From: Rhizopus arrhizus
Lineage: Eukaryota > Mucoromycota > Mucoromycetes > Mucorales > Rhizopodaceae
Length of the DNA stretch: 64,000 bases
Reading direction: 5' to 3'
Assembly: GCA_024220505.1 (NCBI GenBank)
Contig: JAKZZE010000027.1
Coordinates: 372,001-436,000 of the forward strand
The notes beneath the pieces were generated by a model. It had not been told where the DNA came from. It did no database searches and saw only the letters and a list, made by a program, of their open reading frames with translations. Position numbers and translations under genes: made by a program. Position 1 is the first letter of the stretch, and each line of letters opens with the position of its first letter. Shown here piece by piece: positions 32,039-40,866 of this stretch.

Positions 32039-32605
32039 TTAAGAAGGGATCAATTGTTTGAACTCTTCAAAGTCAATAAAACCATCCTTATTTGTATCAG
32101 CATCCTTCATCATATCCTTTATCTCTTTCTCACTCAATTTTTCTCCTATTTCATTCATCAATTCCTTTAATTCTTCTTCACTTATTTGTCCATCTCCATT
32201 TTTATCAAACTTTTCAAAACATGCTTTCAATTCATCTATTTCATGTCGACTCATACTTCGGACATAATTTCCTTTTTTTTGTATTGTTGGTGAAGAAGGT
32301 GGTGAGTGACTGATGAGTTCTGTCATGATATTCACAAATTCATCAAATTCTATCTTTTCATCCTTATTTTCATCATTTCTTATTACAAGTTCTTGTATAC
32401 TTTCGTCATTTAGGCTCATAATGCCTAGACTCTTTACTATTTTCATAACCTGGTCCAACTCAATAGCGCCATTACGTTTAGTGTCGTACAAATTAAATGC
32501 TTTGTAAACAAAAACAACACATAAGCCACAATATATACATACGCTTAGCATTCTTGGCTTACCTTCACGTAAACTCTTGAGTTCTTCCTTATTAACTGTA
32601 GGCAT
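32039..32605 (-). CDS. Calmodulin/centrin-like protein with four EF-hands
   Basis: Exons 32605-32563 and 32499-32039, joined in phase across a 63-nt intron, give 167 residues. The EF-hand loops are DTKRNGAIELDQ, DENKDEKIEFDE, DKNGDGQISEEE and DTNKDGFIDFEE. Loops 2-4 have acidic residues at the calcium-binding positions and Glu at position 12. Loop 1 has Gln at position 12 and may bind calcium weakly. A Ser/Pro-rich linker (SHSPPSSP) joins the two halves and is longer than in calmodulin. It is likely a cytosolic calcium sensor. Whether it is centrin (spindle pole) or a divergent calmodulin is open. Confidence 0.88.
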   Translation of the reverse strand: MPTVNKEELKSLREGKPRMLSVCIYCGLCVVFVYKAFNLYDTKRNGAIELDQVMKIVKSLGIMSLNDESIQELVIRNDENKDEKIEFDEFVNIMTELISHSPPSSPTIQKKGNYVRSMSRHEIDELKACFEKFDKNGDGQISEEELKELMNEIGEKLSEKEIKDMMKDADTNKDGFIDFEEFKQLIPS

Positions 32606-32705
32606 AAATAGAAGTAAAAAAAAGGAAAAGAGATGTGAATTATCTCATCAATTGACATAAATACACACTCAATTGTTTCGTGTGGAGACTAAAAAAATTA
32701 CATTT

Positions 32706-32897
32706 CAGTGCTTCCAACAAGCAATTTTGCAGCCAATCAAAGTCGATATTGCTCACTGCAATAATTTAATAAGTCGGTAATATTCGCTTGAAACTCGAAT
32801 ATTACCAAGTATTAAAACGGCGAATTTTACTTTTGAAATATAATTTCGTTTTACTCTAGTATTACGCACGCCAAAAAAAGCATTTGAAATCTTTGAT
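32706..32897 (+). repeat. Dispersed AGTGCTTCC repeat, copy C, with a hairpin; truncated by DIRS
   Basis: It begins CAGTGCTTCCAACAAGCA and keeps the ATCAAAGTCGAT block seen in copy B. It contains an 11-bp perfect inverted repeat, GGTAATATTCG (32776-32786) and CGAATATTACC (32796-32806), with a 9-nt loop. It could be a MITE or a transposon end; the DIRS element begins where it stops. Confidence 0.45.
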
Positions 32898-32940
32898 TCT
32901 TGATCGAGAAAATTCTCTTGAGAATTGTTTGAGACCGTCA

Positions 32941-33065
32941 GAACAAAATAGAAAATGTTATTATGCTAGGATTTTCTTGAAATTTTATTTTGTAGCGTGT
33001 TCTAAAGATATATAAGAATGAAATAAACAAAACTTTTAACGATTAATCTTCTTTTTCGCTCGGTC
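32941..33065 (+). repeat. DIRS left inverted terminal repeat
   Basis: It starts GAACAAAATAGAAAATGTTA and ends CTCGGTC. It is the reverse complement of 37158-37280 with scattered mismatches. About 43 unpaired bases of left-end extension precede it. Confidence 0.88.
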
Positions 33066-33133
33066 ATTTCCGACTGACTTTCTTATACTCAATACATTTT
33101 GCACTTTATCACTATTACACTTTCATAATTTCA

Positions 33134-34027
33134 ATGTCCTCTATTGAAGAACAATTCCACATGATGCAGCAATTTGTTGCTGCCCTTCAGGAACAACTCA
33201 ATGGTGCTTCTACTATGCAGTCAGCGAATGACACTGCTCCTATGCCTCTTCATTCAATGAGTACTCGCCCTCACTACGACTGGTCACCTTCCGATACTCT
33301 TACCAAATTGATGCACCTGGATACTCCTTTACATACCTCTACTTTACTCTCAGACTCTGAACGTAAGGCTATTATTGAGTCTTACCCTCCTATGGCTCAG
33401 CTTGAATATAAAACCCCTGCTACCATTCATACAGCTGAACGTTTAATGGCCAAAGGACAACGATATGAAGACAGATCTCTCAAGCATCTTCATTATCTTT
33501 CGTCCGCAGCTTTTCGTCTCTTGGATATTCTCAGCCATGAACTCGTCTCCTCTGAATCGGACAATTCATATCTCGAGCGTTACTGTACTATGCTCAGAGA
33601 TGTTCGTAAACTTTTGCTACATGTATGTTCTGCCATGGCCCAAGCTTGAAACAACATTGCTCTTCGAGCAGTCGATCCTTCATTTTTGTTAAAGCAGGAT
33701 CAAGAGGTACAATACACTCTTCCTTTGAATGAATTCTAAAATACTTTAATTCAACAAACTGCAGCAAGAAAGGCCACTCGTGAGGTAAATGTCAATAGAC
33801 GTCAACCTCATCGTTTTACATCAAGCAAGTCCGTTAGTTCCAGCTCCTTCTCGAATGCTCCGAATCAGCAGTTTTTTCGGTCGGGTCCACCCTCACAGCA
33901 GGGTGGTTACATCAACAACAGCCATGATAACAACTTCAACAACAACAACTCCAGCAACTTCAACAGCAACAACAATTTTCGACAGAATAACAACAAGAAG
34001 AAGAACACCAATCCCTTTCGTCCGTAG
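33134..34027 (+). pseudogene. DIRS gag-like gene with two internal stops
   Basis: The ATG at 33134 starts MSSIEEQFHMMQQFVAALQE. The frame has a TGA at 33647-33649 and a TAA about 90 bp later, but otherwise continues in the same frame to the TAG at 34025-34027. The C-terminal part is Asn/Ser/Gln-rich (NNFNNNNSSNFNSNNN) and basic. Apart from the two stops the frame is not shifted, so decay is by point mutation. Position and composition fit a DIRS gag; there is no zinc knuckle. Confidence 0.7.
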
Positions 34028-34129
34028 ATCCAACAACAACAGCAATAATAACACCTTGATTGTCAACAATAACAACAACCGATCCAGTAGGAGGTCGGCT
34101 CAGCAAATATACTGTAAAATAGATAGAAA

Positions 34130-35794
34130 TTTTCAACAACTCGTTTATCAACACAACAATTCAATCCAGTTACTACATCCCTTTCCATACACCACCTCCC
34201 ATTACCTCAACACCTACACCAATCGTGCCATTCTCAGCCGAACAATCTCATCTAATCGATCAAGCAATCCAATATTTGTTGGCGAAAGCAGCAATCGAGA
34301 AGGTATCAGCCCAACAAGTTCAGCAAAACCAGGGATTCTACAGTTCAATGCTTGTCATTCCCAAAAAGAATGGCGGCGTTCGACAGGCTTTCAATCTGAG
34401 GAAATTGAACCAATATTTGGAGGCTCCTCATTTCAAGATGGAAACAATCAGGGAAGTATCGCAAATGATAAGACCAAACGATTACCTAGTCTCAATCGAT
34501 TTTAGGATGCCTTTCTGCATATAGCTCTCCACCCGGAATCTCGACTGTTTCTACGGCTGAATTGGAAAAACCAAGTGTACCAATATTGTATCACCCCTTT
34601 TGGTTTGGCCACAAGTCCATTTGTCTTCACCAAAGTTTGCAGGCCTATATTAGAATACTTCCGCTCTCAAGACTTCAGGGCCTTTGCGTACTTGGACGAC
34701 TGAATTCTAGCTGCAAGCACCAAGCAATTGGCTATTCAACAAGTTCAAACAGTAGTGGCTCTTCTTCAACAATTGGGATGGATGGTCAACTTCAAAAAAT
34801 CAGTTTCGACTCCTACTCAACAACTGGGACACCTAGGCTTTGTATTGAATATCCGCACAATGACGGCATCACTTCCAATGAAGGAACTTCGCGACATTCG
34901 TCGTTCCATCAAGTAAGTATTGGATCACCCTCACAGACAATCTACTCGCGTAGTGCACAGTCTCACAATGCGAATACAGGTGGCAACCTTTGCCGTATTC
35001 CCAACCCGTCTGTATACACGACACTTTCTATACTACAAGAATCAAACTGTCAAATCGGAAAAAGACTGGGACCTTCTCTCACCCAGGACCCAGCCAGCAT
35101 ACACGAACTGAACTGATGGTATCACAACCTTCAGAAATGGAACAGTCGCTCTCTCCTTCCATCTACGCCCACCCAGACCATCTTTTTTGACGCCAGCGGT
35201 ACGGGTTAGGGATGCAGTTGGCAGAACCAACGAATTCATGACTATTGGACTCCAATCAAAGCAGCTCAATCGATCAATTGGCGGGAACTCAAGGCAGCTC
35301 GTTTGGCTCTGAAGACCTTTCGGGTACCGAAGAACTCAACCATTTTCATCAGGACGGGCAACACAACCAGCTTATCGTATATCAACAAGCATGGTGGAAC
35401 TCACTCTCTCCCATTATTGGAACTAGCGACAGAAGTTTGGAACTGGTGTCTTCGCCACAATATAATGATCCAGACTCAGCATATCAGTGGAATTTACAGC
35501 ACAATAGCGGACATGGAGTCTCGTCGAACCTACTTCAAGAACCAATGGCGGATCAAACCTTCTGTATTCGAGGAGCTCAATAAGATATGGGGTCCTTTTA
35601 CAATCAATCTCTTCGCCGATCGAACAATGAAATTGTTGCCAAGGTACTTATCCTGGCTTCCGGATCCGGATACTATCCACACGGATGTGTTTTCCATCCC
35701 ATGGACGAAACTAATGAATCCATACGGAAATCCTCCCTGGAATCTCATCTTTCGGGCATGCAGAAAATCAGGCAAAAACGACTCCAGTACATAG
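34130..35794 (+). pseudogene. DIRS reverse transcriptase-RNase H region, broken
   Basis: The first RT block reads GFYSSMLVIPKKNGGVRQAF and then NLRKLNQYLE. A frameshift near 34505 moves to the frame with DAFLHIALHPESRLF and YCITPFGLATSPFVF, then AYLDD directly followed by TGA. Later blocks read INWRELKAARLAL (RNase H), NLFADRTMKLLPRYLSW and NPPWNL, typical of the DIRS RNase H and following region. At least one frameshift and several stops separate these blocks, so no functional enzyme is made from this copy. Confidence 0.85.
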
Positions 35795-35810
35795 TTCTGG
35801 TGGTCTCTTA

Positions 35811-36971
35811 TTGGCTCAGTGCGATTTGGTTCCTCCAGTTAACCCAAATAGCCCTATCCCGTCCATTACTCCTTCCTCCTCAAGCAGTTCAAACGACATC
35901 TCACAAGACGACTCACCCTCAACTTTCTCAGAATTGGATGCTCTTCGTGTGGCAATTATCTGGAATAAACCGGTGAAGGCTAATCTGAATGAACAAGCTA
36001 TACAAGATTTGCTTACCCAAAAACTGGCTTCCAGCCCCACTAACAAGGCATATCGTAAAAATCAATTGCGTTTCTTGGAATGGGCTAATCACAATCAGGT
36101 ATCCTATACGGCTTTCTCTGGTGATGATCTGATAAATTTCTTAGCAGCTATCCGACAGACTCATAATTTCCAGGTTGCTACTCTCAAGTCGGTTCGGGTG
36201 GCAGTTGCTCATCTTCATGACAACCCTCCTGGTACCAGTGAAGCTTCTTTGGTCAATTCTTATTTGGACTCCCTCTCAAGACAGGCTCCTCCAATTTCAA
36301 TCCATCGAGAACAAGTCGATATGACCCCTTCCTTGGATTATGCTCGTTCGATTCCCTCTCAACCTGATACTTCTATCAAATTGTTACAACAAAAGTTAGC
36401 TTTTCTCTTGGCTATGGTTGCGTTCTTAAGACCATCTGACTTGGCTCAAATTCCCTTTTCCTCTTGTGAAGTTCATGAATCTGATGGCTATCTTAAATTT
36501 CAAGTGGTCTCTCCCAAGGAAACTCGCAAGAAAAGACGTATAGTCAAACCTTTTACTGTCCATCCACATACAAGGGATCAAGAACTGTGCCCAGTCCAGT
36601 GTTTCAAAGCATTACGAGATCATCCTGATTTGCAGGCTCATCCTACGAATTCTACGTTATTCATCAAATCCAACAACATTCGACAATCGTTATCTGCCAG
36701 CACTTTATCCTCTTGGCTTCATCGTGAGCTTATCTCTTTGTCCACCTCGGAATCTCGAGTCTCTATTCATTCTTTGACGTCTTTTAGAGCTCTAGATCAA
36801 GGCATCCCCATGGACCATATTGTGACTCTTGGTAACTGGGTTTCGTCAAGTACTTTTCAAGATCATTATCAACGCAATCAAATGGCTATGATCGACTTTA
36901 CTTCTACAGTCCTCTCTGGTTCCAATGATGATGAATTCTTTGATGCTTCAGATAACTTTTCTCTGGATTAG
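35811..36971 (+). CDS. DIRS tyrosine recombinase (long open frame)
   Basis: The frame is open for 386 codons to the TAG at 36969-36971. It has no early ATG, so it would need readthrough or a non-AUG start, and it overlaps the upstream region as in other DIRS elements. Residues resemble phage-integrase-type recombinases: an arginine in AFLRPSDLAQIPFSS, then IHSLTSFRALDQGIPMDHIV, TLGNWVSSSTF and a tyrosine in QDHYQRNQ. The usual HxxR motif reads HSLT, so the second catalytic Arg is either lost or supplied by a shifted residue. It would integrate the circular DNA copy. Activity is doubtful. Confidence 0.75.
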   Translation: MAQCDLVPPVNPNSPIPSITPSSSSSSNDISQDDSPSTFSELDALRVAIIWNKPVKANLNEQAIQDLLTQKLASSPTNKAYRKNQLRFLEWANHNQVSYTAFSGDDLINFLAAIRQTHNFQVATLKSVRVAVAHLHDNPPGTSEASLVNSYLDSLSRQAPPISIHREQVDMTPSLDYARSIPSQPDTSIKLLQQKLAFLLAMVAFLRPSDLAQIPFSSCEVHESDGYLKFQVVSPKETRKKRRIVKPFTVHPHTRDQELCPVQCFKALRDHPDLQAHPTNSTLFIKSNNIRQSLSASTLSSWLHRELISLSTSESRVSIHSLTSFRALDQGIPMDHIVTLGNWVSSSTFQDHYQRNQMAMIDFTSTVLSGSNDDEFFDASDNFSLD

Positions 36972-37083
36972 CATAATAACATTTCCTATTTTGTTCTGAC
37001 GGTCTCAAACAATTCTTAAGAGAATTTTCTCGACCTAGAATTGATAATTAGACCTGAAGAACAAAATAGGAAATGTTATTATC
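36970..37083. repeat. DIRS internal complementary region
   Basis: The first half is complementary to the left end of the element (GTCTCAAACAATTCTT and flanks). The second half (ATAATTAGACCTGAAGAAC) is complementary to the right end. Together they are the reverse complement of a right-end/left-end joint. Confidence 0.88.
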
Positions 37084-37157
37084 CCACCCTTCATTTTTAT
37101 TATTATTATCCCTTTAGTATATGATTTATTTTCCCTCCCTTCTTTATCTTATATTTT

Positions 37158-37280
37158 GACCGAGCTTAAATTCGATTAATTGTTAAAAGTTTGTTTATTT
37201 CACTCTTATATATCTTTGGAATACGCTATAAAATAAAAGTTCAAGAAGATTCTAGCATAATAACATTTCCTATTTTGTTC
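37158..37280 (-). repeat. DIRS right inverted terminal repeat
   Basis: It pairs with 32941-33065. About 19 more bases (TTCAGGTCTAATTATCAAT) form the right-end extension. Confidence 0.88.
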
Positions 37281-37299
37281 TTCAGGTCTAATTATCAAT

Positions 37300-37785
37300 G
37301 TTTATTAAAACTCATCAAAGAGTATAAGGATTAAGAGCGATACAAGTGTATTAAACAGTGACTTATAAAAATACAAAAGAAATTAGCATAGAGAATTGTA
37401 AGCAGATAGTTTCAATAGCTCCTTCTGGATTTGATTGATGACAATCTCATCCACGACAGGAGTCTGTTCAAAGAATTGTTGCCAGTGGGCTTTCCAAATG
37501 AATCGAATGACTGTAGCAAAAAAAATCATAGATTGTAAACTTGTCATGATAGTGTAAGATGTAATACTTGGATAACCTAAGTGTGGATAAATCCTCGAAT
37601 ATTGAGCTACAGTTGGGATCTTTAGGATTTGACAAGTATTTCTTGAAGGCTGCGTTCCACAAGTCTTGCTTTTGAATACAAGTAAAGAGCATATGCTGCT
37701 CTGTTTCTGGTAGCTTGTACAATTGGCAATAGTCGTCATCTACCTTTGCTGGGATGATTCTATGCAAATTGGCTCGAGTGGATAA
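37300..37785 (-). mobile_element. LINE relic: 3' end of an ORF2 related to the intact LINE
   Basis: The minus strand reads STRANLHRIIPAKVDDDYC, then a divergent zinc motif (C...C...H...C) and W. After a frameshift it reads IWKAHWQQFFEQTPVVDEIV to a stop at 37383-37385. This parallels the ORF2 end of the intact LINE (IWRAHWRYIFDGTPFLPQQ). It is 5'-truncated or interrupted at the left end of the Fanzor element. The DIRS element lies in or beside its 3' UTR. Non-functional. Confidence 0.75.
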
Positions 37786-37787
37786 TA

Positions 37788-37833
37788 TAGTGTTTTAATC
37801 TAAAATAAAACGATTTAATAAAATAAATTAGAC
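37788..37833 (+). repeat. Left terminal inverted repeat of the Fanzor element
   Basis: It starts TAGTGTTTTAATCTAAAAT and ends TTAGAC. It matches the reverse complement of 40508-40553 with three mismatches. Confidence 0.9.
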
Positions 37834-38195
37834 AATGCAGATTCCTTTTGTAGACGATTTTTTTTATCATACTATCATTCTCCACCTTTTACTGTGGAGT
37901 GCAATGTAATCGAGCAACTGGCTGTATGCACACATATCATTAGCTTTGTAGTGCTGTATCTGAAATGGCAACAATATAAGCACTTTCTTCATAATGTCAA
38001 AGAGGGACAGAGTTTATAATTCATCATCGAGACATTATGTTATGAAGCACTGAACTATTTGATCATTATTCATCATATCATATAGTATAAGATTATAGAT
38101 AGAATTGTTTCATTGTTCTAACTCCATTCTATCAATGACAGCACAAATGACAACAGTAATAAAAAACACTGTCAATTTATCTTTTATTTTTCTTT

Positions 38196-40336
38196 ATGGA
38201 ACCGCCTCTAAAAATCATAACAGTTAAAAGTTCAATCGCTGGTATTGGGTGGAAGCCACAATATATTCCGCTACTCAAGACGCTTGTAGCTAATGTTCAT
38301 ACCCTTGTGTCACATACATTCTCCTTTTTGAAGTACATCTTTATTCATGAACTGGAAAATAACCCTGCGTTTCCCTTGGAGGATTTCATTAATGTTGACT
38401 TTTTTAAAGAAGTCTTTTTGTCACTCCTCAAAAACTACAAACCAGACAAGCAGAAAGCTTCGACAAAATCAAGAACTTACAAAGGGCAAGTACTCAACTA
38501 TCGACACCAGTACTTTCAGTGCTGTTCGTACGAGCCAATTAATATGAAGTATGCTCATCAGATAGCCTCTTATGAAATGGTAAAGATCGTCACTGCTTAT
38601 CTGAATGGGGTCAAGGTTCAATTCGGAAACAAAGTTCGAATGTTTCTTAACTTGCTCTTAAAGAAGAACGAAAGAATCAAGGCGCTGAAAAGCGAGATGA
38701 AGAAAAACGAGGGAACAGAGAAGGAGATTGTGGCAACTATAAAGACAATAACAGAGCAGATAAGCAAGGTCAAGTTGGCTATATCGTCAAGGAGCATTGA
38801 AGATGTTCCCAAAGAGTTTTTCTCCTCAAATGATTTAGATAAAATCCGTAATCTTTTTGACTCGTATTCGACGGATTATCGATTTGCGAAAGGCTCGATC
38901 TATTACGACTGCAAAGCTAACCCTCTCAAGCACATAAAAGCGTACTATAGACTATCAAGCATGTGCGAAGCGCTTCAAAACAAATCATTCAATTGCTTTC
39001 CATTAAGAAAGGGCTTCATACCATCGTATATGACGATTGATACATATATTTTAAATACTCAAATCTTGAAGAATTCCATCATCAGCCACTTGGATAAAGA
39101 AGTAGTATGGGGAGCCGTTCTTGATGTTAGATCAAAAGCGATGAAACCACAAGGAGAAAGAAGGATCATAGAGTTTAGAGGTACGATATACACAGATGGC
39201 GTAGGTGTGTCGGTGTTAAAGCAAAGCTACGATACAATGAAGAAAGGTGGCAGCAGTGGTGGAAAGCCAAAGTCTATTAAAGCAGAAGAATTCCAGTACA
39301 TTGAGAAGTTGGGAAAAGAAGAGTTGCTGGCTGGTGTTGGCAAATGTGTATTAATTGATCCTGGCCGTCGAGACTTGCTTTACTGTATGCATGAAAAGAG
39401 TACTGTTGAAAATAAAATGATTTACCGATATACAAGCAACCAAAAAGCAATCGAAACTAAATCTAGAAAATTCAGGAAGCTCAGGAACAACTTGAAGAGA
39501 GACGAAGTGATTGCAGCCGAGCTTTCCCTGTCGCATTTCAAATCTTCAACTGTCAACAAAGACAAGTTTATCGAGTATCTTCAAGAAAGAGCCAAAGTCA
39601 CCCATGTCATGAAAGCGTACTACTTAAATGAAGATCGCCCTGCAGCAGAAGATCAGGGTGCCGGTGGTTTTTTACCCTTTAGAAAAATGAAGTTCTCAAG
39701 TTTCATCAATCAGCAACAAGCAGACAAACGGTTAGCCAAGAAGCTTAGAGAGAGGTTTGGGAATGATTCTATCTTAATACTTGGTAATTGGTCGGCAGGA
39801 AAGGTAAAGTATCATGAACCCATTAGAGGTGTCGGAATGAGAAGAATGTTAGCCAAAGAAGGCTTCCAGGTGTACCTCCTTGACGAGTTCCGGACTTCTA
39901 GTCTGTGCCCTTCTTGCCAAAATGGTGAACTTGAAACGTTTAAAAAAGTGCAGAATCCTAGACCATATCAAAGAGAAAAGTATCCCGTTGTAGACCGTCA
40001 TGGCCTTTTAAGGTAAGTGCTTTTTATATGCAAGTAAAAAAAAATAACAAGCTTTCATAATTTCTGCTCAGGTGCAAAAACCAACAATGTTTAAAGGCTG
40101 TGATGAGCACAATAGAAACTACTGATAAAGCCCCTCTTCGTCGTCTTTGGAATCGTGATATGGCTGCTACGTTAAACTTTAGACAAATCCTTTTTAGCCT
40201 GCGTGCAAATGGTGAAAGACCAGAACGTTTCTGCAGATCGAAAAAACCTCTCTCCACCGGCTCTAAAAGAAAGGATATGTCATCACCATCAGCTAGTACT
40301 AGTCAACCGACGAAAAGACAAAATAATCCTTTGTAG
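38196..40336 (+). CDS. Fanzor RNA-guided nuclease (eukaryotic TnpB relative)
   Basis: Exons 38196-40012 and 40072-40336 join in phase across a GTAAGT...CTCAG intron and give 693 residues. The N-terminal half is Lys-rich and helical with a coiled-coil-like stretch (about 150-200). RuvC-I is CVLIDPGRRDLLY with Asp388. The RuvC-II region is ILILGNWSAGKVKYHEPIRG, where TnpB has Glu; here Asn531 is at that place and Glu564 in LLDEFRTSSLC is a candidate for the shifted glutamate reported in Fanzors. The zinc ribbon has CPSC (571-574) and CKNQQC (607-612), split by the intron. RuvC-III is WNRDMAATLNF with Asp635. The C-terminal tail is basic and Ser-rich. It would cut DNA using a guide RNA encoded at the element's right end. 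No lesion is seen, so it may be active. Confidence 0.92.
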
Positions 40337-40553
40337 TTAACGCTGCATTAATCCCAGATATAGTGTAAGTCTTTGAACAATAATATAAGGGATTGCTCGT
40401 CAACATTTTTTTGAACATGTGTCTACAAAAAGAACCTGTATTGTCTAATTTGTTTTACTCACTTGTCTCAAAAAAATCTGACGTTAGTCTCTTTTATCTT
40501 TTAAGCCGTCTAACTTATTTTATTAAATCGTCTCATTTTAGATTAAAACACTA
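40337..40553 (+). ncRNA. Candidate guide-RNA scaffold region of the Fanzor element
   Basis: 217 bp between the Fanzor stop and the right end of the element, including the right TIR. In Fanzor and TnpB systems the guide RNA overlaps the 3' UTR and runs through the right end into flanking DNA, which supplies the guide. The call is by position only; I made no fold or expression test. Confidence 0.4.
40508..40553 (-). repeat. Right terminal inverted repeat of the Fanzor element
   Basis: Partner of 37788-37833. The outer end reads ...AACACTA followed by TA. Confidence 0.9.
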
Positions 40554-40866
40554 TATATCTCAAGGAATAAAAATTAGTCAAGTTCTTTTATATTTTTATA
40601 TATACTTAACTCAATAAAGCAGGCTAACTTACTCATAAAAGTTCCTGATTTCTTATTTTACTTTACTTTTTATATTATCAAGAAACATTGTATTGATGTT
40701 ACATATAAGATCTGGTGGTCACTACTTAACAAGCATCCGCTTAAATTCTATACATGACAACAATTTACAAGGCAATCTTAATCTTACAATCAAGCTTTAC
40801 AAGCAAACTCTACTCTATTAAAATACAAACCTACAAGTCATCTAATAAAATAACAATATCGTTTGC

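Follow-up and report, generated by a model that had tools for sequence, protein, structure and literature searches.

A TA-flanked Fanzor1 element of Rhizopus arrhizus with an intact nuclease gene, a fixed right end and a variable left end

Judged by its sequence, the protein encoded between inverted repeats in the window (the whole stretch of 64,000 nucleotides analysed here, G000:C20:372001-436000) is a member of the Fanzor1 RNA-guided nuclease family. The element that carries it is very probably a non-autonomous DNA transposon of the Tc1/mariner type, with an intact Fanzor1 as its sole gene, that would be mobilised in trans, would cut DNA by means of a guide RNA and has recently spread as a composite. 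In the genome searched (50.26 Mb, 41 contigs), its copies form a unit that is fixed at the right end and variable at the left. Coordinates are collected in Table 1.

Table 1. Features of the Fanzor1 element and its flanks (window positions).
Feature	Position	Strand	Remarks
DIRS-like element adjoining LINE-like fragment	32893..37296, approximate	+	tyrosine-recombinase-like frame, inverted end repeats
LINE-like retroelement, 3' part, joined to left repeat	37297..37784	-	frame end with sub-threshold zf-RVT match
Left terminal inverted repeat, outer part	37785..37833	+	49-nt arm
Fanzor1 exon 1	38196..40012	+	RuvC-I with D388, E564, first half of zinc ribbon (C571, C574)
Intron, GT..AG, 59 nt	40013..40071	+	splits Fanzor1 frame
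Fanzor1 exon 2, including stop	40072..40336	+	C607, C612, RuvC-III D635, basic tail
Right terminal inverted repeat, full 136 bp	40421..40556	+	presumed source of guide RNA 3' part
Repeat piece (side feature), dispersed, ~320 bp	40560..40857		forms right flank of window copy

The Fanzor1 gene, its product and the element ends

The joined exons encode 693 residues with no internal stop, which upholds the first-pass annotation of an intact, intron-containing nuclease gene. Compared with Parasitella Fanzor1, the joined frame aligns in one stretch across the exon junction (query 491-662). The gene had also been described as the only one between the repeats, and this stands: the longest other stop-to-stop frame wholly between them has only 92 codons, lies on the opposite strand and overlaps Fanzor1 exon 2.

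Comparison with all solved structures demonstrated a best match to Parasitella parasitica Fanzor1 (PpFz1; E 1.8e-164) and a second match to Spizellomyces punctatus Fanzor1 (SpuFz1; E 1.9e-52), the sole distinct sequences matched at E up to 10. Parasitella parasitica belongs to the Mucorales, as does the present fungus. The two matches bear out Fanzor1 within the TnpB/Fanzor assignment, and an unrelated RuvC-fold family is ruled out, since the solved-structure matches are all Fanzor1. In Pfam-A, the TNB zinc-ribbon model alone was matched, under the cut-off (E 0.037). The best protein match, P0001 (named Rhizopus arrhizus / R. oryzae), shares 100% identity over 83% of the query.

The Fanzor motif D-X(125,275)-[TS][TS]-X-X-C4-X(5,50)-RD, as given in the available text of PMC3627910, is present in full: D388, 178 residues, T567 and S568, C571/C574/C607/C612, 21 residues, and R634 D635. 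Residues D388, E564 and D635 align with SpuFz1 D383, E541 and D606, the metal-ion residues named in the available text of PMC10432273. The RuvC-I, RuvC-III and zinc-ribbon signatures noticed earlier are therefore sound, with all catalytic and zinc residues in place and in agreement with relatives of other genera. Among 63 aligned homologues, the three catalytic positions hold D in 57, E in 47 and D in 30, with gaps in 3, 12 and 30 (many records are partial) and other residues in 3, 4 and 3. Since activity has been demonstrated for close relatives, it is reasonable to regard the protein as a candidate active RNA-guided nuclease. Of that claim, made in the first-pass annotation, the intact Fanzor1 with all its catalytic residues stands, while activity itself is drawn from relatives and the right-end RNA has no significant fold.

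By analogy with published Fanzor loci, the right repeat presumably encodes the 3' part of the guide RNA. Folding of the right-end RNA against shuffles gave z +0.54 for 40421-40556, z -0.48 for 40470-40556 and z -1.68 for 40337-40480, and Rfam yielded zero matches at E up to 1 on the candidate guide-RNA region. For PpFz1, a guide RNA of only 75 nt is described (available text of PMC11423790), so a small scaffold could escape the fold test.

The arms at 37785-37833 and 40508-40556 are 94% complementary, with TA at both outer ends. They are the outer parts of full repeats that measure ~136 bp in sibling copies. In the window copy, a loss between two short direct repeats has taken 89 bp out of the left repeat; this stretch is kept in the seven sibling copies with a left-repeat region, leaving the window copy alone without it among eight young copies. 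The 46-bp TA-flanked repeats first described are thus real as paired 49-nt arms with TA, but the true repeats are longer and the left TA lies in a junction to a LINE-like fragment, with no clean target-site duplication. The accompanying claim of a full element context fails on the missing 89 bp, the lack of a transposase and a left flank that is a shared LINE-like fragment.

Right ends read CACTR-TA in 12 of 17 inspected, followed by differing sequence; the exceptions are L012, L018, L019, L020 and L028 (5/17). The Tc1/mariner-type hallmark of terminal inverted repeats with a TA target is present. No transposase was found within the element, where Fanzor1 is the only sizeable gene between the repeats, and an element without its own DDE transposase is non-autonomous at best. 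Nor was a transposase gene seen between the same repeats elsewhere, as judged from the location of at least 41 repeat matches rather than from their interiors read one by one, because all repeat matches coincide with Fanzor-element places. The ~320-bp repeat to the right has 40 other genome places among the matches listed, and on several contigs some of its copies recur at intervals of 7.2-7.3 kb.

Copies in the genome and their flanks

The right 136-bp repeat has at least 41 genome matches, both copy ends counted (best 40 of 42 candidates). The whole element has at least nine young copies, 97-100% identical and including the window, alongside at least 15 older pieces with stretches at 80-91% identity and at least five short fragments (best 40 of 228 candidates for each). 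The repeat of the first-pass annotation is thereby confirmed as belonging to a multi-copy element, and a chance palindrome is ruled out.

The frame is open in seven of the nine young copies (the window and six siblings). Against the window frame, L009, L010, L011, L012 and L014 have no stops and no indels, and L015 differs by a single in-frame 3-nt deletion; codon 532 is a stop in both L013 and L016, the latter being truncated as well. All 12 older pieces checked (L017-L026, L028 and L029) are broken; the check covered 12 of 15, leaving out L027, L030 and L031, and frame-comparison counts for truncated pieces are meaningless outside the matched part. Unique substitutions in the young copies (n = 49) comprise 16 synonymous, 32 non-synonymous and one stop, with an observed N/S of 2.00 against 2.28 expected (p 0.64), as for random change; four older copies gave rough ratios of 0.73-0.77. 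The young copies are recent and without measurable selection. Because young age alone accounts for this neutrality, it cannot tell a dead from a living family.

The junction between left repeat and LINE is common to the window, L009, L010, L012, L013 and L014 (six of nine young copies), and joins the left repeat to the final ~489 bp of the LINE-like element in antisense. Three features underlie the LINE label: a zf-RVT match below threshold (E 0.011), the dispersal of the copies and the presence of T runs. There are at least 32 stand-alone LINE matches (best 40 of 290 candidates); all 11 that were inspected (L046-L056) continue uninterrupted past the junction site, and nine of them have a T run at the end, representing the poly(A). 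Right flanks differ among the young copies, and the compared pairs show no match past the right end. The common left LINE flank and differing right flanks together indicate that Fanzor and LINE tail were propagated as one unit. As the source of the common left flank, homologous recombination within the LINE was rejected: there is no sign of exchange with resident LINEs, because the LINE-part stretch of the window matches that of each of the other five composites at 99.7-100% identity, against 90-96% for stand-alone LINEs (among the matches listed).

The left boundary of this unit takes several forms. In L009, L010 and L012 the unit starts with the poly(A) of the LINE (34, 31 and 25 T, respectively), and the flanks beyond are all different, that of L010 having no further genome match; no target-site duplication was found in these three copies. 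Copies L013 and L014 are bounded on the left by a repeat, flanked by TA, that belongs to a 1.78-kb Tc1/mariner element, and a DIRS-like fragment lies between that repeat and the LINE part. In the window the boundary is the DIRS-like element, and L009 and the window have the same DIRS-like left neighbour (window 33633-37040) at 90% identity, with few places listed that have it. Copy L011 has lost the left-repeat tip, and L016 begins within the gene, its left end absent. Copy L015 is a recombinant, old-type to window position 38105 and young-type onward, with the change ~90 bp before the start codon; its young part has only six differences from L010, and its old-type left end has a LINE-like piece 19 bp from the left repeat. 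With L015 set apart, a left repeat whole to the tip plus a left flank of its own is absent from all eight remaining young copies. The older copies L017 and L026 have both, with TA adjoining the repeats at both ends.

A representative of the 1.78-kb Tc1/mariner element, L069 (G000:C40:130900-132900), has ~120-bp inverted repeats, TA flanks and a 471-codon open stretch with DDE_3 (PF13358, E 4e-29). Its repeat has many genome matches, and the family may be what supplies the Fanzor element with transposase. When the comparison is anchored at the ends, the alignment of the outer 50 bp of the L069-type and Fanzor repeats is equalled or surpassed by only 4 of 1000 shuffles; unanchored, the score is reached by 90 of 1000 shuffles and is not significant.

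On the basis of its architecture, we take 32893-37296 to be DIRS-like. This region has inverted end repeats, an internal complementary stretch and a tyrosine-recombinase-like frame at 35718-36971 (PF00589, E 9.1e-05, under the cut-off). A minus-strand frame at 32039-32644 shows EF-hand-like repeats by eye, presumably of the calmodulin type. The frame at 35210-35794 has a sub-threshold Dam-methylase match (E 0.00094), and Dam-methylase domains occur in DIRS elements (available text of PMC6338049).

How the element may spread and persist

Under the favoured explanation, the element would be moved at TA sites by a Tc1/mariner (DDE) transposase supplied in trans. Fanzor1 would bind a guide RNA from the right end and adjoining flank, and the complex would cut matching DNA, such as an emptied site, whereupon repair off a sister copy would retain or gain an element copy. 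The recent spread would have taken place as a LINE-tail composite and seems to have followed at least two routes. Copies L011, L015 and L016 would fit repair-type copying that starts from the right end, the poly(A) copies L009, L010 and L012 would fit LINE retrotransposition of an antisense composite RNA, and L013 and L014 would fit mixed-end Tc1/mariner transposition. We also propose, tentatively and with some doubt, a chimera of Fanzor1 and LINE tail that would move in some cases by LINE retrotransposition and in others, through the use of mixed ends, by the Tc1/mariner transposase of another element, keeping the guide-bearing right end and leaving the left one free.

Retrotransposition of a composite RNA (Fanzor antisense, LINE tail and poly(A)) would explain the poly(A) left boundaries and the different flank of each of L009, L010 and L012, and we give it somewhat less than an even chance. 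Copy L012 is without the last right-repeat nucleotides, as 5' truncation predicts, and antisense copying retains the intron, which all three copies span without a coding indel. However, a target-site duplication is found in none of the three, L009 and L010 stop exactly at the right-repeat TA, a better fit for a TA transposase, and L011, L013, L014 and L016 are left unaccounted for. For L013 and L014, a Tc1/mariner transposase may instead have paired the Fanzor right repeat with the left repeat of another element; this is a real possibility that falls a little short of being probable. Their left boundary is an L069-type repeat and TA flanks the unit on both sides, in keeping with the end-anchored similarity of the two repeats, but the unanchored comparison does not bear that similarity out. 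Mixed ends cover just two of nine young copies, and since L013 and L014 share further left sequence, these two may descend from a single event.

The intactness of the young copies could also be the mere result of very recent amplification in a family that is already extinct, its function no longer retained because the family is silenced or without a transposase. The neutral-looking substitutions of the young copies, the breakage of every older piece checked, the lack of a tip-complete left repeat with its own left flank in any young copy (n = 8, L015 aside) and the shortened left repeat of the window copy are what such a family would leave. We consider it unlikely, given that the frame is kept in seven of nine young copies and that the catalytic and zinc residues are as in relatives of other genera. 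A domesticated host gene, to which the open frame and intron could belong, is highly improbable: there is no selection signal among the copies, and the many dispersed copies with inverted repeats and differing right flanks led us to reject it.

Relation to known Fanzor1 systems

PpFz1 (PDB 9cf0-9cf3; PMC11423790) is of the same family as the present protein, aligns over nearly its full length and has the same RuvC and zinc-ribbon set. It differs in the FRI, an insertion of ~100 residues in RuvC that binds cyclophilin and, according to the available text of PMC11423790, is reported solely from Parasitella and Rhizopus. The present protein has 21 residues at this place, and the cyclophilin-binding insertion is absent. 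Four of the 63 homologues (P0033, P0040, P0049 and P0055) have 107-117 residues there; P0058 has 38, by eye resembling the start of the FRI-like stretch, and P0048 has 170, by eye unlike it. Thus the present Rhizopus protein is without the FRI, whereas P0040 (R. azygosporus) has an insertion of FRI size. SpuFz1 (PDB 8gkh), as described in the available text of PMC10432273, is likewise encoded by a one-gene element between inverted repeats, with many copies and a catalytic D/E/D. It is the more distant match in sequence, and its N385, also at the metal ions, is G in the present protein.

Fanzor1 of Rhizopus has been in print since 2013, with four families for R. oryzae RA 99-880 in the available text of Bao and Jurka (2013, PMC3627910), and the present element may be one of these. 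One family, ROr-4, is MuDR-type with 9-bp duplications, whereas the present element is TA-flanked. In the same text, the mariner-type PUl-4 resembles it in having Fanzor1 only, inverted repeats and TA, but the PUl-4 repeats are identical to those of confirmed mariner members, while the likeness of the present element to the resident Tc1/mariner is weak. One-ended transposition is reported there for Fanzor-bearing Helitrons in Chlamydomonas; no Helitron signs mark the present copies. Among the 15 of 141 papers listed in a literature search, none dealt with Fanzor-LINE composites, as judged by title or start of abstract; the one Fanzor passage of PMC6338049 likewise concerns other matters.

The element is of a known Fanzor1 type, in a genus with known Fanzor1, and has an unusual history of recent spread. 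It represents a recently expanded Fanzor1 family with several intact copies, near a solved structure but without the cyclophilin-binding insertion, and is therefore a natural comparison for the role of that insertion. With copies that are fixed at one end and variable at the other, comparison of strains can directly test how Fanzor aids its transposon.
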